Assembly: GCF_004210375.1 (NCBI RefSeq)
Contig: NC_134828.1
Location: 24,606,400 to 24,670,399, forward strand
Source of the DNA: Tachypleus tridentatus
Lineage: Eukaryota; Arthropoda; Merostomata; Xiphosura; Limulidae
Direction of reading: 5' to 3'
Length of the DNA: 64,000 nucleotides
Of the stretch, positions 6,429 to 62,100 are shown one piece after another. The notes beneath the pieces are model-generated. The model did no database searches. It worked only from the letters and a program-made list of their open reading frames with translations, and was not told where the DNA came from. How positions within the stretch are numbered: the stretch's first letter is position 1; each line of letters begins with the position of its first letter. The translations under genes were made by a program, and so were the position numbers.

Positions 6429-6707
6429 GTTTGTTTGTTTGTTTTGAATTTCGCGATAAGCCTCACGAGGGCTATCTGCGCTATCAGTCCCTAATTTATC
6501 AGTGTAAGGCTAGAGGGAAGGCAGCAAGTCATCACCACCAACTGCCAACTCTTGGGCTACTCTTTTACCCACGAATAGTGGGATTGACCGTCACATTATA
6601 ATGTCCCATGACTGAAAGGGCGAGCACGTTATGTGCGACGGGGATTCGAACCCGCAACCCTCAGATTACGAGTCGAACGTCTTAACCCACCTTGCCAAGC
6701 CGGACCA
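6429..6707 (-). repeat. SINE-A full-length copy
   Basis: Minus-strand copy with tail, body and complete tRNA-like head ending at the reversed GTCCGGCTTGGC start. Confidence 0.9.
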
Positions 6708-6734
6708 ATAGTTAATGATGTTTTCCCTTCAGTA

Positions 6735-7094
6735 CAGTGGAACCCCTCTAATCAGGCCAGTTTGTCTCAGAGGCCTGGCATGGCAAAGCGTGTTAAGGCG
6801 TGCGACTCGTAATCTGAGGGTCGCGGGTTCGCATCCCCGTCGCGCCAAACATGCTCGCCCCTTCAACCGTGGGGGCGTTATAATGTGACGGTCAATCCCC
6901 CTATTCGTTGGTAAAAGAGTAGCCCAACAGTTGGCGGTGGGTGGTGATGACTAGCTGCCTTCCCTCTAGTCTTACACTGCTAAATTAGGGACGGCTAGCA
7001 CAGATAGCTCTCGAGTAGCTTTGTACGAAATTCAAAAAACAAACAAACAGTTTGTCTCAGTCCCGAAGGTGACTACTTTAAAGGGGTTCCACTG
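6735..7094. mobile_element. Small pogo/Tigger-like MITE carrying a nested SINE
   Basis: The ends are inverted repeats: CAGTGGAACCCCT at 6735 and AGGGGTTCCACTG ending at 7094. Each is flanked by TA (6733-6734, 7095-7096), the target used by the Tc1/pogo superfamily. Without the nested SINE (6771-7047 plus one 13-bp duplication) the element is only about 70 bp and non-coding. Superfamily is inferred from TA plus CAGT-type ends. Confidence 0.7.
6771..7047 (+). repeat. SINE-A full-length copy nested in a MITE
   Basis: Complete head, body and AAAC tail. Its 13-bp target-site duplication CAGTTTGTCTCAG is perfect (6758-6770 and 7048-7060), indicating a fairly young insertion into the older MITE. 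Confidence 0.95.
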
Positions 7095-7172
7095 TATTTT
7101 AATATGACATAATTCTATCTTTAACATATTTTCCATAATTATATCAGCGTATAAACACACCATCCATAATTT

Positions 7173-7288
7173 CGTGCCCCTCAGTGGCACAGCGGTACGT
7201 CTATGGACTGAAACCACTAGAAACATGGTTTCGATACCAGTGATGGTAGCCCACTGTGTAGCTTTGAGCTTAATTCCAAGCAAACAAA
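7173..7288 (+). repeat. SINE-B copy
   Basis: Short-type SINE: tRNA-like head with GGTTTCGATACC, then GTGTAGCTTTGAGCTTAATTCC and a CAAA-rich tail. Flanked by an 8-bp direct repeat CATAATTT (7165-7172 and 7289-7296). Confidence 0.8.
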
Positions 7289-7544
7289 CATAATTTTGTA
7301 ATATTCAACTGCGTCAACAAGAAAACAAATGCGAAATTACACTCTTGTGAAGTATGTAATAAAAATATCTGGAAATCAAAATACCTTTCAGAGTTCAATT
7401 TGTTTAATGTTGTCGTTCTCGGTTCCTATATTCCAGTAAAGGTGTTTTGTTAGATTTAATAACCATCTTTTATTATGTTAAATAACGTGATTAGTTTCTA
7501 TATACCTCCCCTTCCAGTGATACACTAAAAATCGCGTTCTTTGC

Positions 7545-7612
7545 GCGTGGTGAGCAGACAGAGCACAGTTAGCTCATCGTGTAGCTTTCTGCTTAATTTC
7601 AAACAAAGTTTC
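7545..7612 (+). repeat. SINE-B 3' fragment
   Basis: Only the GTGGTGAGCAGA...GTGTAGCTTTCTGCTTAATTTC tail part is present. Confidence 0.65.
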
Positions 7613-8102
7613 CAATTAAAACAAGAGGGAGTCCTCAATAGTCTCGGCACCTGAAGTTCTTTCAGACAGGATCAGAGTAAGTTTATCTAAGAGCTTTTTT
7701 TTTTTTTAATCTTTTTATAACTTATACTTTTTGTGCTCCAGCAATACCAGTTGTAAAATGCACGTATACCCGATTTCATTTGAATACCCATTAGGGTCTT
7801 TACCAGTCTACCCTAAAAGTGAAAATATTTTAGGCAGAATTAGAATAAATTAATCCATGAGACCTTAGTCGTGGCTCAGTACATCAATCAAAAGGGTTTG
7901 CTCTCCTGAGTTCAAATATGTAATAAGATCTCAAATCGGTCAAGAGACGACGGAGATACGAGCTAACACTTTGGACTTGGAAAAAAAAAAACTCAGAGCC
8001 GTTTTATGAGCCGATATGCCGCGGCTGTGAGAAAAGCGAAATATCCTTTGTAATTAAGTAGTTGTAACTTAAATGCTTAATACTGATGAGAGGTTACGTT
8101 AG
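7613..8102. other. Gene-free spacer
   Basis: Contains a short poly-T tract near 7697-7710 and nothing else recognisable. Confidence 0.45.
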
Positions 8103-8202
8103 TTTTGTTTATTCTTAAGCACAAAGCTACATCATGGGCTATTTGTGTTCGAAACCTGATTTTAAGAGCCATAAGCCCTCAGACTTGCCACGAGGGAGCA
8201 AT
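8103..8202 (-). repeat. SINE-B copy, diverged
   Basis: Minus-strand tail (TAAGCACAAAGCTACATCATG region) followed by a decayed tRNA-like head with GTTCGAAACC. Confidence 0.6.
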
Positions 8203-8334
8203 ATATGTCACTTACTGCCACTGAAAAATCTGTTGAAACGAATCAGTTATATGTTTACTCATTTTAATTTCAAATTAAATAACTTCACACAGTGTGCAAA
8301 GCAGGCATTTAGATATTTGACTTCGGCATAATCA

Positions 8335-8565
8335 AGGGTTTATTGTTCCCGACCCGTTGATGAAAAAACAAGGTATTCACTTTCAGTAGTGAGTGCATTA
8401 TAAGAGTGAAAGTTGAATCCACTATTCAGTCAAACAAATATAGCTCAAAAGTTGACGGTGAGTTCTGTTAACTGTTTACCTATCCTCTAAACTAGGGACG
8501 CGATGCTTTAAGCCCTCGGATTCACAGTCCCAGTACGCTAACAGCTTAGTCAGGATCGGTCCATT
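8335..8565. repeat. Decayed SINE-A body and head fragments
   Basis: 8335-8512 follows the SINE-A body on the plus strand (GTGCATTATAA, CCACTATTC, GTTGACGGTGAG) with many changes. 8513-8565 resembles a tRNA-like head in reverse (CCCTCGGATT...CAGGATCGG). Confidence 0.5.
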
Positions 8566-8818
8566 TCATTTGATAAGTAATATATATTGTTCTTATTGTA
8601 TTTTATAATCACCGTAAAATATAAGTGTATGTAAATAAATATACTCCTAAAAGCTATGCTGTAAAAAAGTGTAAGTCTTGGGTTAATTGTTAGTGATGAA
8701 CCTATTGTGCTAAATAATTAATTCGAAGGTAAAATAACAGCAACCTATATAGCAGGCGAGTATATAATTTTACTTATTTTAACGTTTCGACTCATAATAT
8801 CATATTATCACCCGGAAA

Positions 8819-9095
8819 CGGCCCGACATGGCCATGCTTGTTAAGGCGTGCGAGTCGTAATCTGAGGGTCGCGGGTTCGCATCCCCGTCGCGCCAAACAT
8901 GCTCGCCCTTTCAGCCGTGGGGGCGTTATAATGTGACAGTCAATCCCACTATTCGTTGGTAAAATAGTAGTCCAAGAGTTGGCGGTGGGTGGTGATGACT
9001 AGCTGCCTTCCCTCTAGTCTTACACTGCTAAATTAGGGACGGCTAGCACAGATAGCCCTCCAGTAGCTTTGTGCGAAATTCAAAACAAACAAACA
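8819..9095 (+). repeat. SINE-A full-length copy with target-site duplication
   Basis: Head, body and AAAC tail are complete. A 12-bp direct repeat ATCACCCGGAAA flanks it (8807-8818 and 9096-9107). Confidence 0.95.
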
Positions 9096-9143
9096 ATCAC
9101 CCGGAAAAAGTTACATTCAAAGAGCCGGTTGAATATTTTTATT

Positions 9144-9388
9144 TGGTTTGGTTTGTTTTGAATTTCGCGCAAAGGTACACGAGGGCTATCTGCGCTAGCC
9201 GTCCCAAATTTGGTAGTGTAAGACTAGATGGAAGACGGTTAGTCATCACCACCCACCGCAAACTCTTGGACTACTATTTTACAAACGAATAGTGGGATTG
9301 ACTGTCACATTATAACGCCTCACGGCTGAAATGGCGAGCATGTTCGGTGCAACAGAGATTCGAACCTATGACCCTCAGATTACGAGCG
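9144..9388 (-). repeat. SINE-A copy, head truncated
   Basis: Minus-strand tail and body with part of the head (GAGATTCGAACC). Similarity ends inside the anticodon stem region near 9388. Confidence 0.88.
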
Positions 9389-10289
9389 GTGTTTAACGTT
9401 CATTTATGTTATGATATACCTTAATTTACCACTTAATATACATTTTATATGTTTTATTAATCAATCCTAATTGCGTTCATTTTTCCTTGTGTGTCTGGTA
9501 CTGAATTTTTATCATTGATCATTAGCGATAAATAGAAGCAGAAGCCCACTATTTCCATCTAGTGGGGAAAATAAAAAACATTCCGACCACCGGTATATAC
9601 TTCTCAAATGCACGTAATTGGGAAAAGTAAAGAATAATTGTACATTTCACAAATATATCATTTATTAATGAACATGGTTTTACCACTAAAGACATCATCA
9701 GGTACAGACTGACGTGGTTTGTAGACATACTTGTATGTATTTAACCAAGTAGTCCAGCGGATAAGCTCAGAATTGTTCAAATCCGGATAAAAGCATGAGG
9801 TTTGACACATTTGTATTTGTCCGTATGGAGATTTGTATAAAAACAAAATATATTTAATATCGTGCCCATAAAGATCTCACTTTCACGTTTAATAACGAAC
9901 ATGTCTGCCTGACGGAACGTGCCAGGTGTTCCATCATTAAGAAATCAAATTGTCTAATAAAACGCATTTATTGTTTTACTTTCAGTTTGAATTTTTTCGA
10001 ACTGTTTATTCAGAATGCTCAAGGTATTTGATAGCGTTTTCGGAGACTTGAAATTACATTCGAAAGCGCAGCTTGGCTAATTGAAAGTTCACTTGTCTGA
10101 GATCACGATCAAAGTCTTAATAAGACATCGTATCTTGTATATTATTGAAAGAAACTTATGATTGTTTTTTCCTGTTAGATTATATCATTCTTACTTGGAC
10201 TAGTAAAGGATTGATGCATATGACTATATATGAATACTTCTGTGTTTACTTTTATTTCATAAAAATAAATACGGTCTGCAAGAAATTCA
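9389..10289. other. Gene-free AT-rich spacer
   Basis: No exon or repeat recognised. Confidence 0.45.
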
Positions 10290-19652: not shown

Positions 19653-19952
19653 CACTATCTTAGGAGTTTTGTCATAGTAATCACACAAATACCAAAACCA
19701 AACGAACAGCAAACACCAACAGTTGTGATAAACAACAGCACGCAGATAAAACACAACAATACACACAGCAAAACTACAAAAGAAACAAACACAGATGACA
19801 AAATAAACTTATTTGTGAATATAATTGCAAATTTAATGACGGGCTTTTTAGCTGAACACACAAACAACAAATTTCCTTGACATAGCAAAAAAACACATCG
19901 TACCTTATATTCCACGAAACTTACAGGATACCTGCTATCAACTTAAATTCAC

Positions 19953-20539
19953 TGTTGTATATATCAACATCCAAGGTGCACTGGCTTCCAAGAAACATGA
20001 GATCGAAGACATAATTCAACAAACTAACCCAGAAACTGTAACATTAAGTGAAACATTATTATACAAAAACAACAGATTTAAAATACCATACTACATAACC
20101 ATCAGGAAAGACAGATTAGATAAACAGGATAGAAACGGAGAAATGTTGCTACTACACAAAACAAATCTACCAGTTACTGAAATTCAAATCAGCAGGAACA
20201 ACGAACATATAACTACCAATATCCTGTTAAATAATCGTTCAACCGTTTCTGTAACAGGAATTTGTTGCTCACACACAAAATAAATAGACTTAACATTACT
20301 TAACAAGATCTTTTCCCACAATCAAAACACCATTTTAATAGGAGATATAAACAGTAAACATATCAACCTTGGATGCAACTCCACAAATTCAGATGGAAGA
20401 TTCGTCCTCCAATTCACAGATGAACACAACATATCCTTCCTGAATGACAACACGCCTACGCATACAACGTATGACACTAATACCAGTGACATACTAGACA
20501 TATGCTTAAGCACGTATAACATAAGCCAAAAATCAGTTT
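19953..20539 (+). pseudogene. LINE endonuclease domain (APE type)
   Basis: Reading from TVVYINIQGALASKKHEIED, the domain shows PETVTLSETLL (Mg-binding Glu), IGDINSKHI (the GDxN-type catalytic block) and, near the end, YDTNTSDILDICLS, the usual SxxD-type block. One stop follows CCSHTK near 20281. The nick-making domain of a LINE would prime reverse transcription at the target. Confidence 0.85.
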
Positions 20540-20584
20540 AATTGCATGTGAGAAAAGATGTAGACAGCGATCATCTACCAATAT

Positions 20585-21592
20585 GGTGTGTCTTCAATCT
20601 CACCCCCCCTAAAAATATAATGTATAGAAAAGTGTCTTCGATCTCACCCCGCCCCCTAAAAATATAATGTATAGAAAAGTGTCTTCGATCTCACCCCCGC
20701 CCCCTAAAAATATAATGTATAGAAAAGTGTCTTCGATCTCACCCCGCCCCTAAAAAATATAATGTATAGAAAAGTGTCTTCGATCTCACCCCGCCCCCTA
20801 AAAATATAATGTATAGAAAAGTGTCTTCGATCTCACCCCCGCCCCCTAAAAATATAATGTATAGAAAAGTGTCTTCGATCTCACCCCCGCCCCCTAAAAA
20901 TATAATGTATAGAAAAGTGTCTTCGATCTCACCCCCGCCCCCTAAAAATATAATGTATAGAAAAGTGTCTTCGATCTCACCCCGCCCCTAAAAATATAAT
21001 GTATAGAAAAGTGTCTTCAATCTCACCCCCGCCCCCTAAAATTATAACGTATAGAAAAGTGTCTTCAATCTCACCCCGGCCCCCTAAACATATAATGTAT
21101 AGAAAAGTGTCTTCTATCTCACCCCGCCCCTAAAATATATATATATAGAAAAGTGTCTTCAATCTCACCCCGCCCCTAAAAATAATATAATGTATAGAAA
21201 AGTGTCTTCAATCTCACCCCCGCCCCCTAAAAATATAATGTATAAAAAAGTGTTTTCGATCTCACCCTCGCCCCCTAAAAATATAATGTATAGAAAAGTG
21301 TCTTCGATCTCACCCCGCCCCTAAAAAATATAATGTATAGAAAAGTGTCTTCGATCTCGCCCCGGCCCCCTAAAAATATAATGTATAGAAAAGTGTCTTC
21401 AATTTCACCCCGCCCCCTAAAAATATAATGTATAGAAAAGTGTCTTCAATTTCACCCCGGCCCCCTAAAATATAATGAATAGAAAAGTGTCTTCGATCTC
21501 ACCCCCGCCCCCTAAAAAAAAGTGTCTTCAATATAATGTATAGAAAAGTGTCTTCGATCTCACCCCGGCCCCCTAAAAATATAATGTATAGA
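20585..21592. repeat. ~48-bp minisatellite grown from LINE coding sequence
   Basis: About 21 units of 43-49 bp, each with GTGTCTTCGATCTCACCCC, a variable C/G run and CCTAAAAATATAATGTATAG. The first unit is continuous with the endonuclease-side frame (WCVFNLTPPKNIMYRK) and the last is continuous with the RT-side frame (PKNIMYRKLKFDYKK), so the array expanded from the element's own codons. Confidence 0.93.
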
Positions 21593-23690
21593 AAATTAAA
21601 ATTTGATTACAAAAAAGCAAATTGGAAGGAATACCAAAACGAATTAGATCATTGGCTACCAAACAAAATTATCGCAACAGCTAAAAATAAAATAGACATT
21701 GAAATTACTGTCAAATAATCACGGAGTGCCTTCAAACCACAGCAAACATAGCAATACCAAAATAACAACATAAAACTATAAATAATACATGGAAACCACA
21801 CAAACAACTAATAACACTAATCAAGCACAGACGAAAATTAAGAAGACAATACATGGAGACGAGAGACAGAGAATTAAAAACATAAATAATAAAATAAGAA
21901 ACAAAATCAGAACAGAAGTTACATTATTAAAACAAGAAAAATGGGAAGATTTCTGTTCCCAACTTAATGACAAAACAGAACCGAAACAATTTCAGACACA
22001 CCTAAAAAGACTCACAAATGGAAACACAAGAAAATATACACCATTAGAACACAATAATACCACAGCACAAACAACCAAAGAAAAAGCCGAAACATTCAAA
22101 CAACAACTTCAAAACACATAACGACCCAGACATGAACGTATAGTTTTATAACAAAGTAAACAACTTCATAACGAATAACAGTGACTATCTGAACAACTTT
22201 TCCCAGTCAACTTAAATAACTATCAAATCAACAACACAAACGAATACATAAACACAAAGCTAACAAACACAATTTCCGCACAAGAACTTATGGGAGCAAT
22301 AACTAACACAAAAAATAAACATCCAGGAGAAGATGGTATACAAGTCATCCTTCTTAAAACAGGCACTCCGAAATTATTTGAACATTTCACAGCAATTTTT
22401 AATTTATCATTATATTCTGGATATATCACGGTTTCTTGGAAGCATGCAAACGTATTAATGTTTCATAAAGAAGGAAAGCCAGCCAATAACCCAAATAGCT
22501 ACCGACCAGTCAGTCTGACCAGCTGTGTAGGCAAACTTCTTGAGAGAATAATCAATAACAGACTGTCCACATTCCTGGAGATAACATCAAAATTACCAGA
22601 AGAACAAAATGGATTAAGAAAACTCAGACAAACAACAAACCATTTATTCAAAAATAACCGAAGCAATTGTTGATAGTTTTAATAAACGAGAATGCACTGT
22701 CGCTTGCTTTCTCGATATTGAGAAGGCATTCGACACCGTATGATATAACGGTCTCCGGTTCCGAATGCAAGAAATGGAACTACCGCAGAGAGCTATTCGC
22801 TGGCTATCTAACTTTTTGAAAAACAGTATATATAGAGTTAATGTTGAAGGGACCTTCTTAGAGTGTTTTACTCCAGAAGCTGGTGCCTTTCAAGGAGGGG
22901 TGATTAGCCCTATCCTATTCATCATGTACGTGAATAACATGCCTCTAAAAGATCCAAATAATGGATACTTCACACATTTCGCAGACGACGTTGCTGCCTG
23001 GAAAGTTCACCAACACCAACAACAGCAGCCACAAATATACAACCACAATTAAATAGAATAAGTGAATATTGTCAAAAATATAGAATCAAAATAAACACAA
23101 CTAATTGTATTCACAACGTTAACTAAACATAAACAAGTACAAGCTCAGATCTATATGAATGGAGCACTCCTTCAGGCTGCTACATCTGCAAAATATTTAG
23201 GATTTACACTTGACTTAAAACTAACATGGGTAAACCACATAAATAATATTAGAACAAAACTTTGGTAAATAACAAACTATGCTAGGAGTCTAACTTGTAA
23301 AAACAGTGGAGCAACAGCAGGTAACATCATAAAAAATATATAAAACATACATTAGACCCGTCATTGACTATACAGCCCCTGGATGGACAAATGTAAGTAA
23401 AAAATTACTTCAAACAAAACTACAAACAATACAAAATACATTACTCACAAAAGTACCAAGAACAACATCATATGAATTCACACATAAATACGCACACATA
23501 GAAACAATAGCAAACAGACTCCTACATAGTACAATAAATTATTTTGACAAAAATTGGAGAAAAAATAAGCTAGTAAGCGAACTTGACAGATACATACATG
23601 ATGAGGATAATACTAAACAGCTTTCCCCAGTGAATATACATTTTCAAAATAATAAAAAAACCACCTATAAAGTAGACTCCACATTAGTTT
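21593..23690 (+). pseudogene. LINE reverse transcriptase and C-terminal region
   Basis: Blocks in order: DGIQVILLKTG, NSYRPVSLTS, EEQNGLRK, FLDIEKAFDT-like (about 22700, with a stop after it), GAFQGGVISPILF and the catalytic FADD at about 22981-22992. A later KYLGFTLDLKLTW block and the PVIDYTAPGW region follow. Frameshifts and stops (near 22130, 22673, 22742 and 23052) break it. The domain would copy the element RNA into DNA. Confidence 0.88.
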
Positions 23691-23695
23691 AGTGG

Positions 23696-44100: not shown

Positions 44101-47100
44101 GGAAGCAGTACTTTTTCCAGTCTCGTGGTATTCTGCTGCAAATAAGTTATTATTATAGGTATGTAATATATTTTATTGTTAGAATTTGTGATAAAAACTA
44201 TATACTAATCAAAATAAACAATACTGAATCCACATTAATACTGCCTGGCATACAATTTAAATGCAAGAAGGTAAAAATATAATTCAAATAATTTGCATAT
44301 GCATGTTTTTTGATGGCCTTTTTTATTACCAGAACAGCTACAAAACTGTTTTGTTACCACTATAAGATTGACTGACCATGGCCATAAACGTTTACTGTGT
44401 TCATCTTATTTTACAAGATACACAAAAGACCCAATATAAACTGAGTTTCAACTGACTGTTCCCATAAACGTTTACTGTGTTCATCTTATTTTACAAGATA
44501 CACAAAAGACCCAATATAAACTGAGTTTCAACTGACTGTTCTCATGCGTTTATCTGTGCAAATTCGAGCTTGTTCTTTTGCCAATCTAGTTACTTCTTCT
44601 GAAGCTTCTGCAATAGCTTTAGCACACGCTATCAAGTCTTTCTTTGAACCGCCTTCTCCCCTGTTACATAAACAAACAAAACTATATTATCTTCATGTCA
44701 GAGCAACTTAAATGTCTTTAAACCTAAAAACAAAAACATTATCTCCACATCAGAGTAACTTAAATATCTTTAAACCTAAAGACAAAAACTACGTTATCTT
44801 CACATTAGAGTAACCTAAAGACAAAACTACATTATGTTCATATCAAAGTGCCTTAAATGTTTTTTAAACCTAAAAAGAATCTTTGAATAAAATAATTAAA
44901 TTAACTTAATTGGATATCAACTATGACTAAAACAATCTACGGGCAGGAACAGGAATGAAAAAATAATCTAAATCCAGAAAATTTTTACAAAGACCATACT
45001 ACCAACATTACTTATGTTGAAGACTTGTGGGGTACAAACAGCACAAAGTCATATATCAACAAGCAGTCTATAAAAATATACCCATAAAAATAAAAAATTA
45101 ATTAAATTTTCATGAGTAACCTTGGTATTAATAGTGTTTTTAACTAAGTGCAATGACATCAAAACATTAAGCCTAAATCAAATCACAAAATGACTGGTGT
45201 AAGTTGTAGTTTTCTTTTTAATCTTAAAACAGAACTTAGCCACTCTTACCTAACTAGCTGACTAAGATTAGCCATTAACAAAGCCATTTTCTTAGCAGCA
45301 GCCACAATTTCATTATCCTTGCTTGACCACTGTTTGACCTCTTGATGCAAACCATGTGCAGCCATCTAGTTAATAAAAAAAGCTGAATTTACTACCACTA
45401 CATCTCTAAATAAACACACCCATAAGTCAAGTTACATTTTCGGTTTTGATTCTATCAGTCTTCTGCCTTGTGCACTTTTGATTAAATTATTTTAAAAATA
45501 CACAGTAATTACAGTATTCTTTATTTTAGAACTTTTTATCCTTGCTGATAGTAAAGAAAATAATAAATAGATAATAAAATAACTATCATTTCACATTGCT
45601 CGTGAATGATGAATATAAAAATACTTTCTAATAATTTTTATGGCATTTCATTGATCTATTTATAGTGTATATTTCTTTTATGTTTCTAAAACATATTAAA
45701 CGAGGTACAAACATATTTGTTTACTGGCAAATTTCAATAAAAGGAAAGATAGTCCAGCTATAAATGTACTCTAGCAACTGTGAAGTTTTGTAGGTATACA
45801 TATAACACTTAACACTTTCCTTCAGTCTGTACTTTCCCTTTACAAACGTCCTATATTCTTATGTAGAACATCTCAAATCCAGATATGGTCATGTGCTAAG
45901 TTCTGTACAAGGCGATACGGTCATGTGCTATACGGTCATGTGCTAACTTCTGCGCAAGGCGATACGGTCATGTGCTAAGTTCTGCGCAAGGCGATACGGT
46001 CATGTGCTAAGTTCTGTGCAAGGCGATACGGTCATGTGCTAAGTTCTGCACAAGCGTCACGTACTAAGTTCTGCAAGATACAGTCATGTGCTAAGTTCTG
46101 TAGATGCAAGTCTTGTCCTGGTCTTATTGGTCACTCGTGCTGATAAGATTGTTTTCAACCAGTGAAAAATAAATAATATTGTTTATTTACATTTTCATTT
46201 GCAACAATCTTGCTACTTATACAGCTGGCTTGAAACTTTCATTTCAGCTTCAACATATAAAGCATGAGTTTTATTTTAATATTAACAGTGTCATCTTCTT
46301 CAAATCCATTTTTTATCTTTTAAAAAAAATCTCAATACTATTGAGTAACAAACAGCATCTCTTATAAAGTTAAAAAACAAAGTTAAGACAGTTTTATGAA
46401 TCTCCAGAGTTATTACTGTATTTCTTAAACAATAGCATATATTTTGAAATGTTAAATAATAAAGTGTAAAAAACTTAACCTTTTCTGATATACATAACCC
46501 AATATACTAGAGAAACTACAGTCATGACAGTTATAGCTGTGCAGCTTTACCATTTCTTGAACTTGTCTATCACAACTACTACGTAAGTTTATTCCAGGGT
46601 AAAAAAAATTCCTGACAAAAAAGAGAGATAGACGGGAATTTAAAATCTACCATAATTGGTTGATTTTAAATAAATATGATCTAACTTACCTTGATTGGCT
46701 GATCTGGAAATGAGCAATATAAAACTTACCATAATTGGCTGGTTAGGCTGAGGAGCAGGGAAGGTTGCTTCAAATTCATCATCTGTTTCTGGAGGGGGAG
46801 GACGAGGGGGAGGTACTTCTTCCTGGCCAGGTAGAGGGGGTCTGGGAGGAGCTTGTTCTTAAAGATAGAATACAAGTAATTATTAACAATTTTCATATGT
46901 ACAATCTCATAAATATGCCAACCAAGATACATCCTTGGTAGTGGTTCTCCATGAAGCATTACCAAACTGAAACAATACTGTTCTGTATATTAAACATATT
47001 TTGTTAACAGTAACAATAATGTACAATTACTACTTCTTCAAATGGAGCAGTGGCAAAATTCCAAAAAATAAAGATATATCATAAAACCACTCTCTCTTAT

Positions 47101-50100
47101 GTCCTCGTTTAGTTTATACTGATAAGGAAGTATTACAGTTTGCAAAATCTGAGCTTTTCTAACACTTATTTACAATGTTTCAGTTTGCATCATTCACAAA
47201 TTCCTCATTTTTTGAAGTTACTTTGGAATTCAAGTAGTTGATTTGAAATTATGTAAACTGCTTTTCACAGAAAACATGACACTGAAAAATATACCACCAT
47301 AAAGCAAGAATCTCTATTCTTTCTGTTAAGCTCTATTTGTGTGAATCTAAAGCAACTAAATCAATCATGCTCCAAATTCACACCAGAAAATTTCTCTATT
47401 TTTATAGGTTGTTTTGGTGTGTTTTGAATTTCGCACACAGCTACTCGAGGGCTATCTGCACTAGCCATCCCTAATGTAGCAGTGTAAGACTAGAGGGAAG
47501 GCAGTTAGTCATCATCACCCACCACCTTCTCTTGTGCTTCTCTTTTACCAATGAATAGTGGGATTGACCGTCACATTATAACATATGTTTGGTGTAACAG
47601 GGATTCAAACCCACAACCCTCAGATAATGAGTCAAGTACCTTAACCACCTGGCCATACAGGTTGTTATTCACACAGCACAAATCCTTTTGAAAATAAATT
47701 TTGAATTATATACTTTATAAATAACAAAAGATATTAATGTAAGACATGAGGCAAGTAGTTTTGTGGCAATACTATTTTGTATCCAGTTAGAATACAAAGA
47801 GCTAAACATGTGATTAAAGTAGGTCGTCTCATCTAGTAAGACTATTACTGGTTTATGCTGTCTACCAGTTATTTACCAATTCTTTGAACATTAGAAAAAG
47901 GTATTCAAAGTTAATAAATTCTAGTAGCCTGCCCTTAGCAGCACAGTGGATATTTTGTTGGAATCTGGAAAAAAACTGAATATAAATTATGTATCATTTG
48001 TCCTCACTTCTATATAAAAGGTACTTGTAACAGGTTTCAACAGCTTTAAAAGAAACAAGCAGACTAGTGGTTATTTTGGATGTTACATAAATATGGAGTT
48101 TTAATATAATTATATAAAATTCCAATAACTAATGTTCCTTTCTAATTGTTTTAGTTTGTTGTATATGAATTTTGTGCCTGATTATTCAAGTGATACTCAC
48201 TAACTATATTAATTACAATGTAGCTGTAATGGAATCGTTTGTATTGAATTTCTTTTAGAGAAAAACTACAACAGTAATTCTTGGATTGAGTTCATATCCC
48301 AATGGATGGTTTCATTGTATAATGAATTTACTGAGAGTGTGTAGTTATTGTCATAGATGAAGTATTCAGCTTGTTTAAAGGGATAAATTTATACAAAAAT
48401 GTTTCATAAAATATGAAATTAAACATTTCAACATCACATAAACTCAGTTTTTGATAAATATTACTTCAAATAGAGTAGATATAAAGCAAGTCTATTTCAA
48501 ACCTAATACTATATTTATTCAGAGTTAGATCAATTTGCAAAATCAATACAAAAATGTTATACACAAAAACACCAAGGTATTAATATTCTCAACTAAAAAC
48601 TACAAACAAAAAAAGTCAGGTGGTTACTGTTCCAAACCTTACTTTTACAAAACGTATGCAACATTCAACCAAATACGTTGGCAGGATTAGAAAATCACCT
48701 GCAGCCCTAGCTTGCCAATATTTATACTTTAATATTTTAACACTTGAAACTAATTTACAAGGGGAAATATGTCGAACAAACAAAGCCTCCTATATCAAAA
48801 CACATATCCATGCATACACACACACAGTTTAACCCTTTGACAGTAGCTGCTTTAAACATGCATCAAATTGTTTTGAGCCATACACTGTACATAGCACACT
48901 GCAGGAGGTAAGCTGTACCCAGTATGGTGAACCAGCAGTCAATGGGTTAACAATAAAACATGACAGCATGAATCTTACATACGTATATGATATATAAACC
49001 TGATACAAGGTGAACTGTTTTGTTACATATTTTAATGCTTACACAGTTATACTAAACAAGTCCTACTTAATCATTAAGAACAATATAGTGAAGCCAGTCA
49101 TCCATAAAACTTACCAATGGAACTTAATGTCATAAAAAAGCAAACTATAATGATTAGAAGCACACTGCATTGTCACTAGTTGGTATCCTCACTATTAATG
49201 GATATTTTTCCCCATATATAAACAAATAAAGGAGAAAATTTATAAAAAAAAATACAATACTCTAGTTTAAGAATGAATATTAAAAAGGCTTAACTGATTA
49301 TCTATCATTTTTTCCCTCACTAACAAATAGCTCTTATCAAACTGTGATTCTTCACACACCTAACAAGAAATAACTTTCTGAAAATAGAATGTAGTATACC
49401 CTCTTTTTTTTTACAGTTTCCCACTGCAAAGGGTTATACAAAAGTTCCTCCAAGTACATTTATTTAGATGAGATAGAAGCAAAATTATGCAGTTTCTACC
49501 TAATTTAACAGCAGGTTTATGTTTTTAAGCACAAAGTTACAGAATGAGCTATCTCTGCTTTGACTTCCACGGGTATCAAAAACTCAGTTTCTACATGTAA
49601 TTAGGTTTTAAATTTTCTGCCGACCCACAAGGGGGTTTATGCAGTATGAATATAGAATAATGCACAAAACGAACCTTCTTCAGTGCGATGGAATACATGC
49701 CGCAAAGAAAAAAAATCTATTGATAACCACTTTTTATGTTACTCAACATAGTTTTTAAAACAAGTTTTGACAAACAGAAGATTTTTGAATGTGTTTTTTG
49801 TGTATATATATTTAACAACTCTTCAGGAAAATAAAAATAAACAGTGGGCTATCTGTGCCGTGACCACTACGTGCATCAAAACCTCTGTTTTAATATGTTG
49901 AGCCTTCAGACTAATAATGAGCTAGCAGGTGTCAAGACTACTTGTAACATTTTTTTTATTAAATAAAAACAAGACCTCAAATCACTTTGTATCAATCTCA
50001 TACTTGTGCTTAGTTTTATTTAGTTTTCTGTAACAAACTAGACATCAGAAACTTCTCTGAAAGTTACTTTCACCTCTTCTGTCTATTACACACGACCCTG

Positions 50101-53100
50101 AGACCGAAAAGGTACTGATTTAAAACATACAATGTTCATGTTTAAAGAAAGTGACCAATTAAAACAAAGTGCATTAAAGTATGCATATGTTCTTAACAAT
50201 AAATCCAACATCACAGATTTGTCTGTAAATAGTAATGTAACTACTAATGAAAATCCAGTGTTATCTTTATAGTGGTTATGAAAGGTAGCATAATAAATGA
50301 CTGTTCCTGTTGAAACACAGTCTAACACATGCAAGAAAGAATAAGATAAATCAGATTCAACATTACAGGAATGTGTATCTGTTAATTTTTCATACTGTAA
50401 AAATTATCTTAAATTAATCCACTTTGACAAGCCCAAGTATTACTAAAGTCTGTTAAACTTCAGTGTAAATATACATTTCACTATTCTCAACCTACAACAT
50501 TATCTTCACTGTTAAATAGTGGGAAACTTGAGTGTAAACATACAGCTCACTATTTAATTCTACTATGTTATCTTCTCTATTGATTAATGGGAAATGCGAG
50601 ATACAAATTCTACAAAAGTTGGAACAATAATGTTTCATGCCAACCTAAAGAACTTTATTTTTGCACTGCACAAGATTTCCACAATTAACAAGAAACTGAA
50701 CACGATATTCTAAGACCAAACATACGATAAAAATACAAATAGTTCCTACTTTGTATTACATAAGTACATAAAGACTAACACTGGAGTGGGTATCTCAGAC
50801 ATTTAATTTACAAACAGCAAAGTAATAGTAACAGGCATCTTTCATCAGTAAGGAGAAAAGTGAATGAAAAACAAAAGAGTACAAGAAAGTTTTTAAGTGA
50901 ATCCATATGCTAGATACTTAAGCCTCCTTCACCATTATCAGGGGACCATTCCCATAGTTTGCTTTTTTGTTTTCCATAGCCCAAAAACTTTAATAAAAGT
51001 TGAAAACCAGGTAAACACAAGTTCATGCCAGCACAACTTATTTAATTCAAATTGTAGAAACATCAGTAGAACTGAATTATTATAAATCATTACAGCTATA
51101 CCATGCTTTGATGCAAATAACTCTTCAAACAAAAATATCACATCAATGTGACCTTAAGCAGGTGCAAAGTTAAATACTGACTGTCACAGAAGAAATCCAT
51201 TCTTTGTATCATTTTGCATTGTGAAAAACAGGAAAACACCCATGCAAACAACTATTTGGTCATCATGCCAAGTATAGGGTCTTGTGTAAGCACCATTAGT
51301 TCTATAGAAATAATCCTTGTTACCTCGTTCACACTGCAATGGGTAGTTCTCCTTAATTTCAGAGAAGGATTCCTGATAGAGCAGATCCGAAGTATCTCCT
51401 GAGAGTTGGAAGTATATAACAATGTAAGAAGTTGGATTAGTTTTAATTATTAGTTTCAGTTTTGTTTGTCTTGTCCCTAATTTTTCATTTACAAGCCATT
51501 AGTTACTTCTTTACTCCTGTTTCTTTGTGAAAAAATCTAAAACAAAAATAAATTAAAAACTAACAATTTTAAATAACTGCAAAACTGCTTAAACAATGTT
51601 AAACTCTTTGAACCAGTACAGTAAAAATAAAATCAATATTTTTTTAGTCGGCATCATACTAATTAACTGAAAAAACTGCTTAAACAATATTTTAGTAAAA
51701 TTTTTGAACCAGTAAACATAAAATCAGTTTTTACAGTATGCATTCAAACTAATTAAACTTTACAATAATAGTTAAAGAATTTAACTTAAATATTATTCAT
51801 TATATGTGTTATTTTCAGACCAAATGAAAAGTATTTTAATTCATTAACATTATTTAATTTAACAAGCCTTGTAGTTAAGATGCATGGAGTCAAATCACAA
51901 ACTTCACGGTGTTATTGTGTTACTGAAGAACAAGTACAATGTGTGTTAAAAGATTATGATCGAATCTAGAAAATGCATTACTAAAACATTATCAACCAAA
52001 CTGTTTAATCCAATAGTTTCATACAAGTAAAATCAGAAGAATCTTTTGTGTTTACTTCAGCTAATTCCATCGACTATGTGAAAGAGATCTGCACAGTTCA
52101 AAGCAATAACACGACTGAGCTGAATTTCATATTCTTAGGCCCACCAACAGCAGAATAGCCAATGGTACCCACACTGAAATAATGGCCTACTTGGAACAAA
52201 TGCGAAAAGTGAACTTTACTGTTAACACTTGTATAAAATTTCAGTAAAATATTCAACGGAAAATTTCGCAAATGATGTTAGGAAATGAATGGGGTGGTGC
52301 TTGTTTAAAAATAACAACAAACTGTGAAGATCCCTTTTCAGTAATGGTGCATGTGCTGAAAACGTTAAGTGTAATAACTCTTAAATATTCCCAAATATTG
52401 AAAGTGAAGAATACCTCTTGCCCAACGTGGCAGAGGAGAAACTGACCGTGGCGAATGAGTTGGCAGAGGGAGAAGGGGGGGAATAGGAGATGGAGTGGGA
52501 GAGGGTTGCTGTCGTACTGTTGGAGACACTGGTAAAGAAAAAGTTATTTGTTAATTAATACACTACAAAAAAAAAAAAAGGACAAATGTTAGCTGACTGT
52601 CTTTGTGCAATATTAAAAACAAAGAGGAAAGATATAAATATGTTTCTAACTATTTCCATTTTATTTTTCTTTGGAAGTGCTAGAATTCTCCTTTATGTTT
52701 ATTCAGTTTAACCTTCTAAACATGTACAGAAACATTAAACTTTCTAATGACAGTTCTGAATCATAATTTTCTTTCTAAGCTGATGAAAAACAAGATGAAT
52801 ATTTCTATAACCAAAAAGTAAGCTCTCCCCATACACCCTAGTTAACTGATCTGTTGTACAGCTTTACAAAATAATACAGAAAAACAAAACGGTGACAAAA
52901 TAACTTGTTTTTGTACTTGAAAAAGGAGAGTTTGCTCACATTGTTAACAAGTTAAACATTTATTACCATAGTTTTCAAAGGTGCATTTTTTCCTTTAAAA
53001 CTCTAATTTATACAGAATAATAGCTGTGGCTTCAAGCTTCAAGAAACGTTTATTGGAATTTTACTTGTTTTGAGCAGACAATGTCAAATGAACAGACATT

Positions 53101-56100
53101 TTTTGCAATTACATTCTTAATTAACAATTCCTGACCAGAGAGAGAGAAAGCAGCAGTTAGCAGCATCCTACCATTCATCATCCATATTAAAGGATGGGTT
53201 GACAGTTTAAATTGAGGAATATTTTGTGGTATTGCACAGATGAAAACCAGGATTGTCAACACTGAATTCCAAAGCTCTACCACAATGAGGGGACAGAACT
53301 GTACAAATTCAGATGTCAGCAACATATTAATGTAGCAATAACAAGACAGTTGTCTCCCTGTTGCAATAGTCAGGGATTTTACATATCATAATATCAAAAA
53401 CAACTCCCCAAGTAAACATGTGTAATCACTTTCCTCAATTTCATTTGGTTTGTGTCGTTTCTTTGTACTAATCATTAATGCACTGAATAAGACATCAACA
53501 ATAAATAACTGAGTTCACTTAAACACTGTTAACCTGCTAAACAAATTACATTTTTCTGCAGTGGTCCATGAATACTTTCATACTCTTAAAAAAAAAAATT
53601 AAGGGTTTGTTTTACAACAAACAAGAATAGTACACTTAAGTAATGTGTGTGGTTCCACGTATTAATAACATTTCTTTACTGACCCAACATGGGTTTTCTA
53701 TGAGAAGATATACAGATTAGCAATTATAACGAGTGATGAAACTTTATATATATAAATACCATGTCACTTAATGTTGACTTCACAAAAACACAACTGTATT
53801 TTTAACAATAGTAAAAAAAAATACTAGTTCTGAAATGTTATTACAGGATGGAAAAATCCTTGCTATGTAATATTTTCTACCTAAGTACCTTTGTCAGAGA
53901 AGAAGTGATAATGTAGAGGAGAGGAGCATTTTCCATCCTCCATCATTTGCTCACCCTCCAGGTTATTTGAGACTGAAAAGAATAGCACCAGGTTAGTTTA
54001 TTATATACAATATGACTAGTGAATACCCACTCCAGTGACACCGAGGTACAGTTTGGCCACTAAATACAAATATTTTCAAATTCAGAATACACAAGTAACA
54101 AAAAAAGGTGTTACAACAGTATATTTTAATATCCAGTATTTTTGTTTTTTATACCTTAACAACAGAAGGTGATGACCTCTCAATAGCTTGACACTCAACT
54201 GACCATGACAGCTTTAACTTGCATCTTCTCATATGTTCAATCCACATGCTGTTAGCTAATCCATTTATTCACCTACGATTGTTTTAAAGGTGTTTGTGTT
54301 CACTAATGATTATCACCTTAAATCTGTATGCTGTTAACTCAACTATATTTTCAGAATTAATCCAGCTTTTACAAGATCTGGACAAGAACTTGGTAACTTT
54401 TTCACACCTTTACTGTGTGGACTAAAAGGATAAATCCCATAGTTATTTATAGTGAGACACTTTAACAACTCCTACTGTCTGGCTACCACATTCCTCCTTG
54501 TTCACAAATAACTCCCACCCTTGGGCATAATTTAAGTCTAGGAATGGGATAGTGCGAGCTTGGAACCAATATTTTTTTTTTTTTATGTCCCAGAATTAAA
54601 TATAGAAACTCTTGCATGCAAAGCAGGTATTCTATACCTGAACTAGAAAGGTTAATCCCTATAGCTACTGGTAGTAGAACACTTATTAACCTTTCTCAAA
54701 CAGAGTCATGAGTTAACCACATGCTGAGTGCCTGTATTTATGTGGTAATCCACCTTCTGCTGGTTTTGAAATCAAATCCAAGCAAATACCCTACTACTGG
54801 AACAAAAGGTTTAATTCATGCTTATAAGACACCTTAATCAGCTCAAAATACTTGCTAACAATCTCCTTACCTTGCCTGCTGTACAAACAAAAGTATATCT
54901 TAGTATAAAATCAAATTATGTGATGTCACTTGAATCATTTAGCCATGAGTGCTTTAATCTATATCAGAAACAGATGATAGCCTTTTAATTATTTACTAAT
55001 CCAACAAGTCAAACTTATACCAGTACCAAATATTGTACAATCTCTTACTATTCAGAGACTTTATCACTACTAACTAAAAAACACATTTATTCCAAATATT
55101 AAACAAACATTCTGAAAACAACAATATAATAAAGAATCCTTTAAACACACAAATCATTTGTTCAACTTTTAATGTATTTACAATGAAAACTATGTTTTAA
55201 TGAAGATGTGATCTAGTATCATGACATGTTTTATCACTCTTTAATATGTCTCTACAGAGAACTTGAAGATTTTGTTTTGGCCAATGACTAACATTAGCCT
55301 ACTTTTCAAGGCCTTCAGTAACACACACAAGACTTTGGTTTTTGTATTTTTAAAACTTTAAACTAGAAACATTTAAGGCTCTGCAGGAACCATGTTACAA
55401 ATCACTCACCCACATATGTACCTCAGTGGTAGATCTAGTTATTACACTCTTAACCTGTTATATGTTCTTCACACAAAATCCAAATGCAGAAATTTAAAAT
55501 ACAAAACAAGAAACATTTCTTCACTTGTTCAACTTGGTCATGTTTTGTATTCAGCATGTATTTTATCCAGTAAAATACAAAAAGCAGGTATTTTATTAAA
55601 AATTATTTATAATACAACTCCACAAACTTCTGTTGAGTGAAGTTATTAATACTAGTCATAAATAAAATACAGTGAAACTAATTCATGTTTGACAGATGCT
55701 CTGTACAACACCAGTCAATCTCTTTTCACATCAATGACTCTCATGCTTGTAATGAACAAAAATTATTAATGTGTGTGTGTGTGTGTTTTCTTATAGCAAA
55801 GCCACATTGGGCTATCTGCTGAGCCCACCCAGGGCAACTGAACCCCTGATTTTAGCATTGTAAATCCAGAGACATAGGGCAAAAATCATTAACACAATGT
55901 ATATATAACACTGGAAAACAAGACTTTTTTTTCCTTCTTTTATTAAATTCTTCTACTGGTTTCATGACTTCACAGGAAATTATGACTTGAACATTTTTAT
56001 GAAGTTTCAAATAAAGATGAATCCTTGGTAAAAGATAAAATCAAATTTTTATTCTGTTGAAGGAATAAACCCAGAATTACAGTTAACTTATTAAAAAAAA

Positions 56101-59100
56101 AAGATTTTTCCTTAAAATTAAGGGAAGAATAATCTAACATTAAAACAACAAAAGACACTCAGGAAAATTAATAATTCTAACTTATTTTAAAAAATAGGTA
56201 AAAGTAAAATATGGATAATAATAACCCAATAATTTTATAATCAGATACTTCATAAGCAAGTAAGCAATATAGAAGTTTGCCCAAAAAATGAAAAGTTCAA
56301 ATAAATTGAGATATATAAAACTTTCAATAAAAAAAAATAATTTTGTTCACTAATGTAAGGCGATATTAAATAACAAGGAAAAATAGTTTAAGTAATTCAG
56401 AAATTATGTATTTACAGACTTGTTTGTTTTTAAATTTCATGTAAAGCTACATGAGGGCTATCTGCACTTGCCATCCCTAATTTAGCAATGTAAGACTAGA
56501 GGGAAGGCAGCTGGTCATTACCACCCACTGCCAACTCTTGGATTACTCTTATCAATAAATATTGGGACTGACCATTATATTTTAACACGCTCACAGCTGA
56601 AAAGTTGAGCAGATTTGATGTGACAGGGATTTGAACCCTTGACCCTCGGATTATGAGTGGAGTGCCTTAACCCCCTGGCCATGCTAGATCAATAACTTAT
56701 TGTTGGAAACAAGTGATGATATTCACATTGCAAAACCTTCCAACATTTGAAGCAGACTGATTGTTAGGAAAGAATTAAAGTATTACCAAACATTTAAGTG
56801 ACCTTTTACACATATTATTAACACATTTTTTATCTTATATTCCTAGTCATGTATTAGGGATGATTTTGTATTTGTTAAAAAAATTACTAAGGAAACTAAA
56901 AGATAATCAAGAGTTTTGTTTATTTAGACATGGTAGCTCTGTATCAAAGAATTGAAGACCAATACAGACTTAAAGCTATGGAAGATATAAATAAATAAAT
57001 AATTATTTAATACCAAATTTAATGAATGTTTGGAGACATCACTAGAGGTTTATTGAATTATAATTAATACACTACTCAATTATTTTAAAATATAATTTTG
57101 TAGCTCATGTGAAACTTTGTGGAAAATATTTTGATGATTGTTTTGTAATCTGGAAAGATATTCAAAATAATAAGTTTGTTGGGTTTTTAAATTCAATAAA
57201 CATGGACATCAAGTATACCTTTGAAAGAAACAATAAAGGCTTGTCCTTTTCAGATGTGTTGTTTCAAAAGAAAAGGAAAGTGTATCTGATATTTCTTACA
57301 AACCAACAAACTATTATCAAATAAGTGGATTTTTTAAACAATCATCCCAAACATAAAATTAAATATTCCTCTAAATTTTGCAAGTAAATTATATTGTTTG
57401 GTTTCCAATAAAAAAAAAACAAGAGGTATAATAATAGATTCTTACAACTAAAAGAATTTTTAGTTCAGTGTTACTATCTGGAAAAAAATTATATTAAATG
57501 GTTTTGAAATTGCAAAGAACTTTTTCAGTATAAAATATTTAGACAGAGGTTAGTAAACTGAAGAGAATGTTACAACCTTTTCTTGTGACTCATCATCCAT
57601 ATAAATGTGGATAATATACAATTTATATATTATCCACATATATATGGATATATGTAAGAAAGCAAAGTGAAGTCACTGAAAATTTATTAAGCGTATTTAT
57701 CCTTTGAATTTTTTTCTAATTAAAATTTGTTAATACACAATTAAAACAAATATTAAGTAAAAATTAAAAGATGTACTTAAAAACATTTTATGAAGAAGAC
57801 ATTCTAAACATTTGTACAGATTATTGAATAAATACAAAGAAAAGATAATTTATAAAGGTATCTTTACTTGTGACAGAATTGTGGTTTACGTAATTTAGAG
57901 AATTCTACTATAATAACAACAAACAATAGCAAAGACATTTTTTTTTGTTTTTATTAATAATTCATTTATTTGAAATTGAGAAAATATATCCTTCAAAATA
58001 TGTAAATTGTAGTTACTTATATATTGATAAAACAATTTAAGATTAAGGATAAATGTACATGAATTCCATGTTAGATGTCCTGAAAAAAACCCACTGTCAG
58101 TAAAACATTTTGAGGAATGTATTTTAAGAAAATTTAAAATTCTAAAAGACCCATATTTTCATGCCTTCCCTTTTTGGTAATGTGAAACATAAGATTATTT
58201 TCCAAAAATATATTTTATTTCTTTTAGTGCTACTTTAAATAGGTAGAAATAAGAGGACAGAAGTCAAATAAGATTGTGTGAAATTAATAAGAATTGGGAA
58301 ATTACAAAAACAGTTACTAAGATTAACAGAAAATAAAAATCAAGTAAGAAATTATAGGATAAATAAATTTAATTTTTATTATTATAATAATAAAATATAT
58401 AATAAGAATAAGATTTTAATTAAAATTAATTTATTTATTCATTTGTGTGTATTTGTATAGTACTTTATCTACACACATAGTGTACTATGTATTTGTACAC
58501 TTGGAAAGTATGTGTATTTAATTTAGATTTCTGCTCAGCTGAAAAGCAGTACTTGTGTATTTTTTATTATAAATTCTCAGTTAAATTATTTCCTGATGTG
58601 TGATCTTTGAAGTCATGAAACCAGTAGAAGGAAGTAATATAAAAAAAAAGCCCTTACTGATATTTTGGTTTCATTACATACATGCATATAGCACACATAA
58701 ATACAATTGCATATATGTATTAATAGCAATGATATCTCAATTAGCAGGAAGGTAACTGTGTGTATATATTAGTAATTTTCAAACTAATATTGTACTTGCT
58801 TGAACCACAAAGTAATAAATGTTTTATTTACGTTATATCAGAAAGTACTTCAAGTACGATAAGTATAAAAATTAAATGAAACAAAATTCAACAATGAAAT
58901 AATGCACCTTTTGTCTTAAATTAAAGGAAAATGTAGTTGTGTGTATATCTGGAGTAATGGTTATAATGACAGTTTACCTCCCCCTCCAAAAAAAGACAAT
59001 TAAATACAAATAACACAAGAAACTTAGATATATATAGAGTAATTTAAGTAGAAAACCTGATATTGTACGAGACCAATCAGAATGTTGCAGTTCTTCATTA

Positions 59101-62100
59101 CACAACAAAATATCAATATGTGAAAAATCAACTGTTTTCTGTTATACAGCAAATTCTATAAAGACATCAAAATAAAAGGAGAAACTGCAAAACTTGGGTG
59201 AACTTGCTATCAGTTAAAAGCAATGAGTGGGAAAAAAAAAAAAAAAAAAATAAAATGTGAAATAAAAATGAACACACCATGCCTAGTGTCACTATATATA
59301 TATATATATTATATTAAGTTGTGGATTCAAATCTTAATTCAGTTGGTAAGTGGAAAAATTCCAACCAAAAACTATCATGCCTAAATCAGGCACATTAATA
59401 AATAAAAATCTTTCAGGTAGCAGTCACATTCTCAGGAGCAAGCCCAAAAATGATGGGAAAACCACTACCTCTCTTGGGTGGACGCTGAGGACGTTCTATT
59501 GGGGCAAACATAGAGCTAAAATCCATACTAAAAATGTCACTGAAATCAGGATACTTGATCGGCTCTCTGGCAGAGGTCTCTAGAAAATCAATGTTAGGCT
59601 TCAGATATCTTTAAAAACTAAATGGATTTCTTGTTCTCTTTACACCATCATGGAAATCATTACATTTAATTAACTGAAAAAAACATTTAACTTCATTATA
59701 TGGTAGGCAAACATGTAAATAATCATTCAATAGTTTATTTCTTTATTTTGGATAACTGGGTTATCTGTGCTAGCAAATAATTTTTGATTGATAGACTAGA
59801 GAAATAGTAGCTAGTACACAACACTCATCACAGCTCTTTGACAACTCTAATCAAATAACTAAATCTTACTACTTGGATCTTAACACACTCGCCTATGGTT
59901 CCAAGGTGTGATTTTGCAGTAACAGAACACAAATCAAGAATCCTCAGATCCAGTCCGACGTACTAACCATTACTTAAAATAAAGAGCTAAACATACAGTT
60001 GAGAATACTGAGGATCTATAATACTGACACCTTCTTATAAAACACTAAAAGTGAATCCTAAGTAAGTATACTTTTGATAATACAATCTTTTCAAGCACCT
60101 CAAATAAGTTACCTTGTTACTGAGGTGACGGCATATTATGTAACAGAAAATCAACCAGTCTTAATTTCAACAAACATTTCAAATTTGTATAGTAATTTGA
60201 TATATTTAGTCAATATAGAATATCAATACGAAATATTTTGTGCTATAATAGTATACACATACACAGCTCTATTTTTTTTAAAGTTCTAGAAGACAATAGA
60301 TTTAATCTAAAAAATATTTTCTTTATTTTGAACAGTAACTTCGAGAAATAATATACTAAGGCACACCACACCTTACAATATCACCTGTCTCACTTTTGTT
60401 AGCTTGTATACGAGACACAAATAGGTTCTGCATAGAGTGATGACTTGGAAAAAGAAAGCACTCACTACAAACAAACTTTAGGTTCAAAATCATGATTTCT
60501 CTTTGTAATGTTCAATGTACAGTTGTTGGACTGTAAATGGCATTATTAATCAAAAATTTTAATACAAAGAAACTGATAACTGAAACAAAAAACTGGCCAT
60601 TAAGAAATTACTAGTTTTACTGAACTGAGAAATTCTCTCTAATCTTTTTTATTTAATATTATTGTCAAACACATGGAAGAACCACGTCACTTAAAGACCT
60701 GCAAATCAGACATTAACTCCACTGTTTTTTTCTTTCGAGAAAACATAACTCTAATATTCAACAACAATGCAGAAAGCACATCTTACGGGTTTCCTAACAT
60801 CTGATCCTTGATGATGTTAGTTTCTTTCTGTAACATGATACTGTAAGTGTTCTAAACCAAGTTAAATAACAAACACAAACCAACTCCTCAGAAAACTAAA
60901 CTCCTTTACTTGTATGACTAGGCTTAAATTCTACAACACAGTTTCAGTGTCTTAAATGTTTTCTAAACAAGTTTACAGCTGTTTTTGATGTTTATCATAT
61001 TCTCTTTAAAATAAAAAAATTCATTCATTTGTGAGAAAAAAAATTAATTACTTCTAAAAAAAAACCCAAAAGTGGAAACAAATAAATGTTATGATTAATC
61101 ATATAACTGAAAATATACAGAGATGGCAACATTCAGCAGCTTAAAAAAATGGACAAATGGACCATATATAGAAAGTAATATTAATAAATTACCATAATTA
61201 TCTCTACACTATATGCTTATAAATGTGCAATAATTACAACTAATAAAAATATTAATCTCAGCACATTTCTAAATCAATCAAGATAATACTTCAAGTTTCT
61301 TAAAACTTCCATCACCATATTACATGTAACAATTAATGCATGTACAAAATGTTTGTAAAACAAATTATGTTATATTTTTATGACTCACCAGTGATGTAAA
61401 GATTTTGCATGTCTGGGGGTGGAGGGACCTCTGGAGGTTCTACTTCAGGCGTGATGGTTACAGCATAACGTACCTGACCCACTGAAGTTATCAACTACAA
61501 CAGAAATAAGCTGTGGTTTAAATATTTCTATAACTGAAAGATCTTACGATAATAATAAAACCAACAAATTCCTACTTCTTAAGTATTTAGTCACCTTTAT
61601 TTAGAAGTACCACATTCTACAGCTGTGACAATGCTTTACCAAGGCATCCTTTCAACCATACTATAATTAAAGAGTTGGTATAAATTGACAGGTTGGGAAA
61701 TTCAGTAGGAGTATTTAAATTTTCATTTTATTTTCAGGACATCAGTTTAATATCAGTTAAATAAGTTGCTTAAAGTAGTGACACTGCACATCTTAATAGA
61801 ATCTTCAAAACAGTTTGCAACACCCAAGAAAGTAATGGCAGCTCTTACACATACAAATAATCCTATGTTTGCTACCAGTGTACGTACAAGCTCAACTTGA
61901 AACCAGCTTTACTTCACTTGTTTAACTACAACATTAGTCGTAAAATGATTGTGTGCCCCAACGAAGTGTAGTGTGTATATTTTTATATTTTAATTATTAA
62001 TGCATGTTGGCAGCTTTGGCACACAAAAATTCCATATCAAGCATCAACCACATAAATGGAAGAACAAAAAACAGCAATTCACAAAGCTTAGCAACTATTT

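Follow-up and report, generated by a model that had tools for sequence, protein, structure and literature searches.

Putative optional exons in the head-tail linker of a vinculin gene of Tachypleus tridentatus

Probable optional linker exons in a vinculin gene

The 64,000-nucleotide stretch of Tachypleus tridentatus DNA analyzed here, referred to as the window (NC_134828.1, 24,606,400-24,670,399, or C4:24606400-24670399, of a 2.17 Gb genome), holds the 3' part of a vinculin gene on its minus strand, and the tail exons of this gene (C4:24647338, 24650936 and 24651642) matched PF01044 above the cut-off in a profile search. Vinculin connects integrin contacts with actin, and a proline-rich linker, or hinge, joins its head and tail. 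According to our analysis, the 14.5 kb intron between two constitutive hinge exons, termed U and D, carries optional exons which would extend this linker in frame. We assign this reading a probability of roughly 77%, with two of the four candidate intervals (E3 and E4) being very likely, one (E1) probable and one (E2) doubtful. The animal thus probably makes vinculins that differ in the head-tail linker, unlike the one known vertebrate variant, since two, and probably three, of the four exons have counterparts in a second vinculin gene. The exon reading draws on sequence features and on one related gene in one genome. The exons concerned, in the order in which they would be transcribed, are as follows.

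61389..61494, minus strand: U, upstream constitutive hinge exon; ends in phase 1, contains proline cluster 1 (VPPPPD), homologue in the second vinculin gene
59469..59579, minus strand: E1, candidate cassette exon, probable; 111 bp, phase 1-1, collinear decayed counterpart
53889..53972, minus strand: E2, candidate exon, unsupported; 84 bp, phase 1-1
52415..52528, minus strand: E3, putative cassette exon, well supported; 114 bp, phase 1-1, paralogue exon
51324..51398, minus strand: E4, putative cassette exon, best supported; 75 bp, phase 1-1, paralogue exon, conserved intron flanks
46730..46857, minus strand: D, downstream constitutive hinge exon; starts in phase 1, contains proline clusters 2 and 3, homologue in the second vinculin gene

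The intervals were proposed in an earlier note on this DNA, and their coordinates, lengths, phase and reading frames prove to be as it described them. Each is preceded by AG and followed by GT, has a length divisible by three and a symmetric phase, and is open when entered with the single dangling G of U. Spliced directly to one another, U and D also stay in frame and give a peptide that aligns to the linker of the PDB vinculin chains 1st6 and 1tr2 (which we take to be chicken and human vinculin, respectively), which bears out the claim that the flanking constitutive exons by themselves give a vertebrate-like hinge. The maximum of 128 extra residues is likewise the correct sum (37+28+38+25). 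The description of the donors as good, however, was mistaken: all four are weak (gtagtg, gtactt, gtattc and gtaaca) and none has G at +5, in contrast to the donor of U, gtgagt. E1, E3 and E4 are rich in G+C relative to this intron, with 1.5%, 0.1% and 4.8% of windows, respectively, attaining their levels; for E2 (G+C 0.43), 5.5% of intron windows do so.

The frequency of comparable intervals was assessed in a scan whose thresholds were set by the weakest of the four and whose splice matrix was approximate. The sense strand of the U-D intron yielded 14 candidates in nine clusters (6.2 clusters per 10 kb), five of which are not among the intervals of the earlier note. The antisense strand of the same intron gave 2.1 clusters per 10 kb, and the corresponding intron of the second vinculin gene gave 4.0 on the sense strand (seven clusters, its E4 among them, its E3 falling below the donor threshold) and 1.1 on the antisense strand. 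For the whole window, the values were 3.1 on the plus strand and 4.4 on the minus strand, the latter taking in the U-D intron itself. Because nine clusters stand against 1.1-4.4 per 10 kb in the controls, splice-site, length and phase criteria alone are close to chance and do not separate exons from noise. It is conservation in the second vinculin gene that sets some of the four apart from chance; such conservation is strong in the case of E3 and E4, moderate in that of E1 and absent in that of E2.

Counterparts in a second vinculin gene

The second vinculin gene, here called paralogue A, was located at C2:32.87-32.97 Mb by the PF01044 profile search, in which the best candidates alone were scored. 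Its U-D intron measures 17.6 kb, and the gene carries exons corresponding to U, E3, E4 and D, arranged as in the window gene, plus a counterpart of E1. The spacings in the window gene and in A are 1809 and 2212 bp between U and E1, 1017 and 1243 bp between E3 and E4, and 4467 and 3455 bp between E4 and D, respectively.

Each interval was aligned locally to the hinge intron of A and compared with 100 dinucleotide shuffles. E3 reached a score of 90 (shuffle maximum 38, z 23) and E4 a score of 74 (shuffle maximum 36, z 17). Both counterparts are collinear, and their alignments run without gaps over the full length, matching at 74 of 114 bases in E3 and at 51 of 75 in E4; the AG and GT borders coincide, and the frame is open. 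When the remaining intron was compared with A at a blastn E-value of 1e-5, all shared stretches occurred in multiple places, i.e., were dispersed repeats. As would be expected of cassette exons, E3 and E4 are therefore conserved in a related gene; for E1 this holds in part, and for E2 it does not hold.

The counterpart of E1, at C2:32902076, is collinear and 83 bp long, has the weak donor gttgtg and keeps both borders in register. Its alignment score was 42 (null mean 27.5, shuffle maximum 36, z 5.2), and with a gap cost permitting a deletion it rose to 46.2, which none of 300 shuffles matched. The counterpart is probably dead, since its length is not a multiple of three and TAG stands in frame in the part homologous to the 3' half of E1. 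E1 itself would probably be a real exon whose copy in A has been lost. When the genome was searched at the DNA level with E1, the one match was E1 itself; the diverged counterpart was missed by this search, which passes over very common words. A tblastn hit to E1 at A 24589 (E 0.059) was rejected as an alternative counterpart, as it showed no matching borders by eye and the DNA alignments favor A 32077. For E2, no counterpart was found in the hinge intron of A (score 32, z 1.5): the best alignment spans 18 bases, lies in the wrong place and was rejected. E2 remains unsupported, as it fits only criteria which chance also fits.

Further PF01044 exons occur in partial copies at C2:1.53 Mb and C2:1.65 Mb (L016, L017 and L024), which are about 98% identical to the 3' end of the paralogue, comprise tail exons without the hinge and represent either a recent duplication or an assembly duplicate. 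The tail-only copy at C2:1.53 Mb was considered as an extra witness and rejected, its sequence being nearly that of A (about 98% identity) and beginning beyond D. Four more PF01044 loci, on C8, C10, C7 and at C2:96 Mb, are presumably alpha-catenin genes. A pair of vinculin genes that both have hinge and head exons, together with four presumed alpha-catenin loci, form the pattern expected after repeated genome duplication. A whole-genome duplication is dated to about 135 million years ago in the available text of PMC7815833, and the two vinculin genes could, as a conjecture, stem from this event. A comparison of 41 kb of the window with 40 kb beside the paralogue showed repeats alone in its 40 best DNA hits and its 25 best protein-level hits, so we offer a whole-genome origin of the pair as a supposition rather than a demonstration. 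As a separate observation, a 3.6 kb block at about 6360-9910 (locus L026), situated in a vinculin intron, is 74% alike to the region upstream in the paralogue near C2:32.93 Mb and is perhaps a transposable element.

Constraint on E3 and E4 and their intron flanks

Divergence between the two genes was compared for E3 and E4 together against five pooled constitutive blocks (U, D, T1, T2 and T4). Block T3 was dropped since an indel misaligned it, the exon upstream of U was not a block, T1 and T2 contain some codons from intron edges, and stop codons were disregarded. The proportions of synonymous (pS) and nonsynonymous (pN) differences were 0.63 and 0.045 in the constitutive blocks and 0.42 and 0.31 in E3+E4. 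Synonymous divergence is thus lower in E3+E4 (20.5 of 48.3 sites, compared with 92.5 of 147.1 in the constitutive blocks; Fisher p 0.012). In a frame test, the same substitutions were placed at random 20,000 times and three frames were tried, the p values being uncorrected. In the proposed frame, the observed replacements were more conservative than random ones (BLOSUM 132 against a mean of 84), and the other two frames carry three and five stops. The measurement of purifying selection that the earlier note had called for gave weak evidence at the protein level, pN not being significantly lower than pS within E3+E4 (p 0.22). The conservative replacements (p 0.006) and the paralogue frame, with both E3 and E4 open in 3.2% of random placements (p 0.03), do speak for the proposed frame. 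A reading of E3 and E4 one frame over was rejected, as it is out of phase with U and D and meets three stops in the paralogue. The phase-1 frame is thus the best of the three, but the protein sequence is loosely constrained, which would suit a disordered linker.

The intron adjoining E4 is also conserved, and includes the following features.

51399..51648, minus strand: conserved intron directly upstream of E4; ACTAAY at 51436-51441
51024..51323, minus strand: intron downstream of E4; GCATG at offsets 55, 78 (inside TGCATG) and 217; AAAGCATGGT common to the paralogue

The 250 bp upstream of E4 align to A with a score of 93, which was equaled in 1 of 400 and 0 of 400 random intron windows, and the ACTAAY motif is common to both genes, at -43/-42. 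We assume that it could be a branch point or a site of the STAR/Quaking type. The downstream flank scored 50 against A, a value reached in 5 of 400 and 15 of 400 random windows. The probability of at least three GCATG motifs, presumably sites of the Rbfox type, in 250 nt is about 0.005, without correction for having examined four motifs and seven exons; two GCATG motifs lie downstream of E1, and none was found downstream of E2 or E3.

In these respects, the intervals resemble the conserved cassette exons treated in PMC1543662, the available text of which reports a low rate of synonymous change (dS) in alternative exons of conserved structure and raised conservation of the flanking intron in a subset of alternative exons. 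The likeness extends to low dS in E3 and E4 pooled and to the flanking intron of E4 alone; the high nonsynonymous divergence of E3+E4 is unlike these exons, and optional use is, in the present case, a deduction of ours.

Several observations weigh against the reading of these intervals as optional exons. Nonsynonymous divergence is far higher in E3+E4 (43.5 of 140.7 sites) than in the constitutive blocks (22.5 of 497.9), and pN is not significantly lower than pS; in the text of PMC1543662 that is available, a high rate of nonsynonymous change (dN) is tied to exons whose structure is not conserved. Changes at codon positions 1, 2 and 3 number 30, 13 and 21 of 63 (p 0.006), and this first-position excess is an unusual coding pattern; one frame over, the pattern is more coding-like, changed codons are rarer than in random placements (p 0.02), and the BLOSUM comparison gives p 0.06. 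The E3 of the paralogue has a weak donor and acceptor, and the flanks of E3 score at background against the paralogue, i.e., are not conserved. As regards the other two intervals, E2 is without support. The paralogue copy of E1 is decayed, and the score of E1 against the paralogue is equaled or exceeded by 34 of 175 other windows of the same intron, the top ones lying in dispersed repeats and the remainder being unclassified. Position and the register of both borders thus count as much in favor of E1 as its score does.

These difficulties are reflected in the other possible explanations. E3, E4 and possibly E1 might be real exons which are non-optional, or which enter rare, low-level transcripts without protein function, that is, relaxed and slowly decaying ancient exons. 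The high pN of 0.31 in E3+E4, the decay of E1 in the paralogue and the weakness of all donors are in keeping with this, but the synonymous sites of E3+E4 and the flanks of E4 are more constrained than decaying sequence would be, and E3 and E4 have kept their exact lengths and frames; we consider this explanation unlikely. A role of E3 and E4 as conserved noncoding elements, such as an enhancer or a splicing decoy flanked by AG and GT by accident, would agree with the odd codon-position pattern, with the conservation of the E4 intron flanks and with the fact that the evidence for exons is DNA sequence. It is made very improbable by the conservation of E3, which ends at the splice borders with flank scores at background, by two lengths which are identical multiples of three free of indels, and by replacements which are conservative in the phase-1 frame. 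The view that each of the four intervals is a stretch left open by chance between cryptic splice sites fits the nine candidate clusters in the intron, which are not far above background, and remains the best account of E2; for E3 and E4 it is contradicted by scores of 90 and 74 against shuffle maxima of 38 and 36, and as an explanation of the whole set it is barely credible. We therefore retain E3 and E4 as very likely real and optional hinge exons. The earlier claim that all four intervals are optional is accordingly narrowed: given their paralogue counterparts, E3 and E4 are best read in this way and E1 is likely to be of this kind, and the claim is unsupported for E2, which has none. The figure of up to 16 isoforms is unsupported.

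Position of the inserts and possible consequences for the protein

The insertion point is equivalent to LRLT/DELAPP of chain 1tr2, inside the linker, and the inserts separate proline cluster 1 from clusters 2 and 3. In the alignment of the D+T1+T2 peptide to the vinculin chains, the metavinculin point (vinculin 915/916, after WSSK) falls inside the uninterrupted exon T1 (WSSKDNEI), so that, by position, the inserts would not be metavinculin exons; the earlier note had correctly placed them within the proline-rich linker and away from the metavinculin site. They are 25-38 residues long, and the metavinculin-specific segment was matched by the constitutive NQP..WSSK in a PDB search made with constitutive peptides only. 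Metavinculin carries 68 residues between 915 and 916, which replace the extended coil and tail helix H1 (PMC7827843, available text), and one confirmed splice variant, in the tail, is given for VCL in the corresponding text of PMC2904371. The metavinculin exon (vertebrate VCL exon 19) is alike in being an optional in-frame vinculin exon between head and tail whose skipped form is standard, optionality in the present gene being deduced from the sequence; it differs in that metavinculin has a single insert, whereas here two or three shorter inserts would lie further upstream, within the linker. Splice variants of talin in Ciona intestinalis (PMC1702346, as far as available) provide another instance of alternative splicing of an invertebrate focal-adhesion protein, in a different gene. 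No cassette exons of the vinculin hinge were found in the titles and abstract beginnings of the papers listed in searches of the Creative Commons-licensed PMC literature.

If all candidate exons were skipped, a vertebrate-like linker would result, and the inclusion of one or more would add 25 to 100 residues (the latter for E1, E3 and E4 together) between cluster 1 and clusters 2 and 3. The weak donors would leave inclusion to regulators, for which the conserved ACTAAY block upstream of E4 and the GCATG motifs downstream of it may serve as handles; specificity of E4 inclusion for muscle or embryo would be a guess. Inserts would lengthen the head-tail tether and shift cluster 1, which we take to be a VASP-type site, away from the SH3 sites. 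E3 contains 12 prolines and six SP/TP pairs, so that its inclusion could add up to six serine/threonine-proline (S/T-P) sites; the E3 of A has three prolines and one such pair, and the content of E3 is therefore not conserved even if the exon is kept. Together, a longer tether, altered site spacing and S/T-P sites might tune autoinhibition and partner binding, the linker being a suggested binding site of vinexin, VASP and Arp2/3 in the available text of PMC7827843 and PMC6070524.

A more far-reaching possibility, which we put forward tentatively and regard as rather doubtful, is that a combinatorial set of three linker exons predates the vinculin duplication and sets hinge length and phosphorylation by tissue, as a splice-tuned tether that is independent of metavinculin and has been pruned differently in the two copies. 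If the exons are used as proposed, they would represent a second, independent solution, in which the linker of vinculin is edited rather than its tail, and would offer natural variants for studying how linker length and the spacing of proline clusters set vinculin activation, as well as a duplicated gene pair which keeps some optional exons and has lost another.

Exon D has two candidate acceptors six bases apart (AAG/AACAAG/CT, window 46851-46860, minus strand), the downstream one of which seems to be the sole one kept in the paralogue. Because of this pair, the linker may also vary by two residues.

Other features of the window

A tandem repeat, open on both strands, occupies positions 3133-4086 (HGSSLPCEGEVTLSTSVL...). 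Broken transposase reading frames, presumably of the Tc1/mariner-like type, lie at 4366-5459 on the minus strand, and broken reverse-transcriptase reading frames, which we take to be those of a long interspersed nuclear element (LINE), at 19852-23692 on the plus strand. Short dispersed repeats at 47380-47670 and 56420-56690 on the minus strand are common to many places on C2 and are perhaps derived from transfer RNA.

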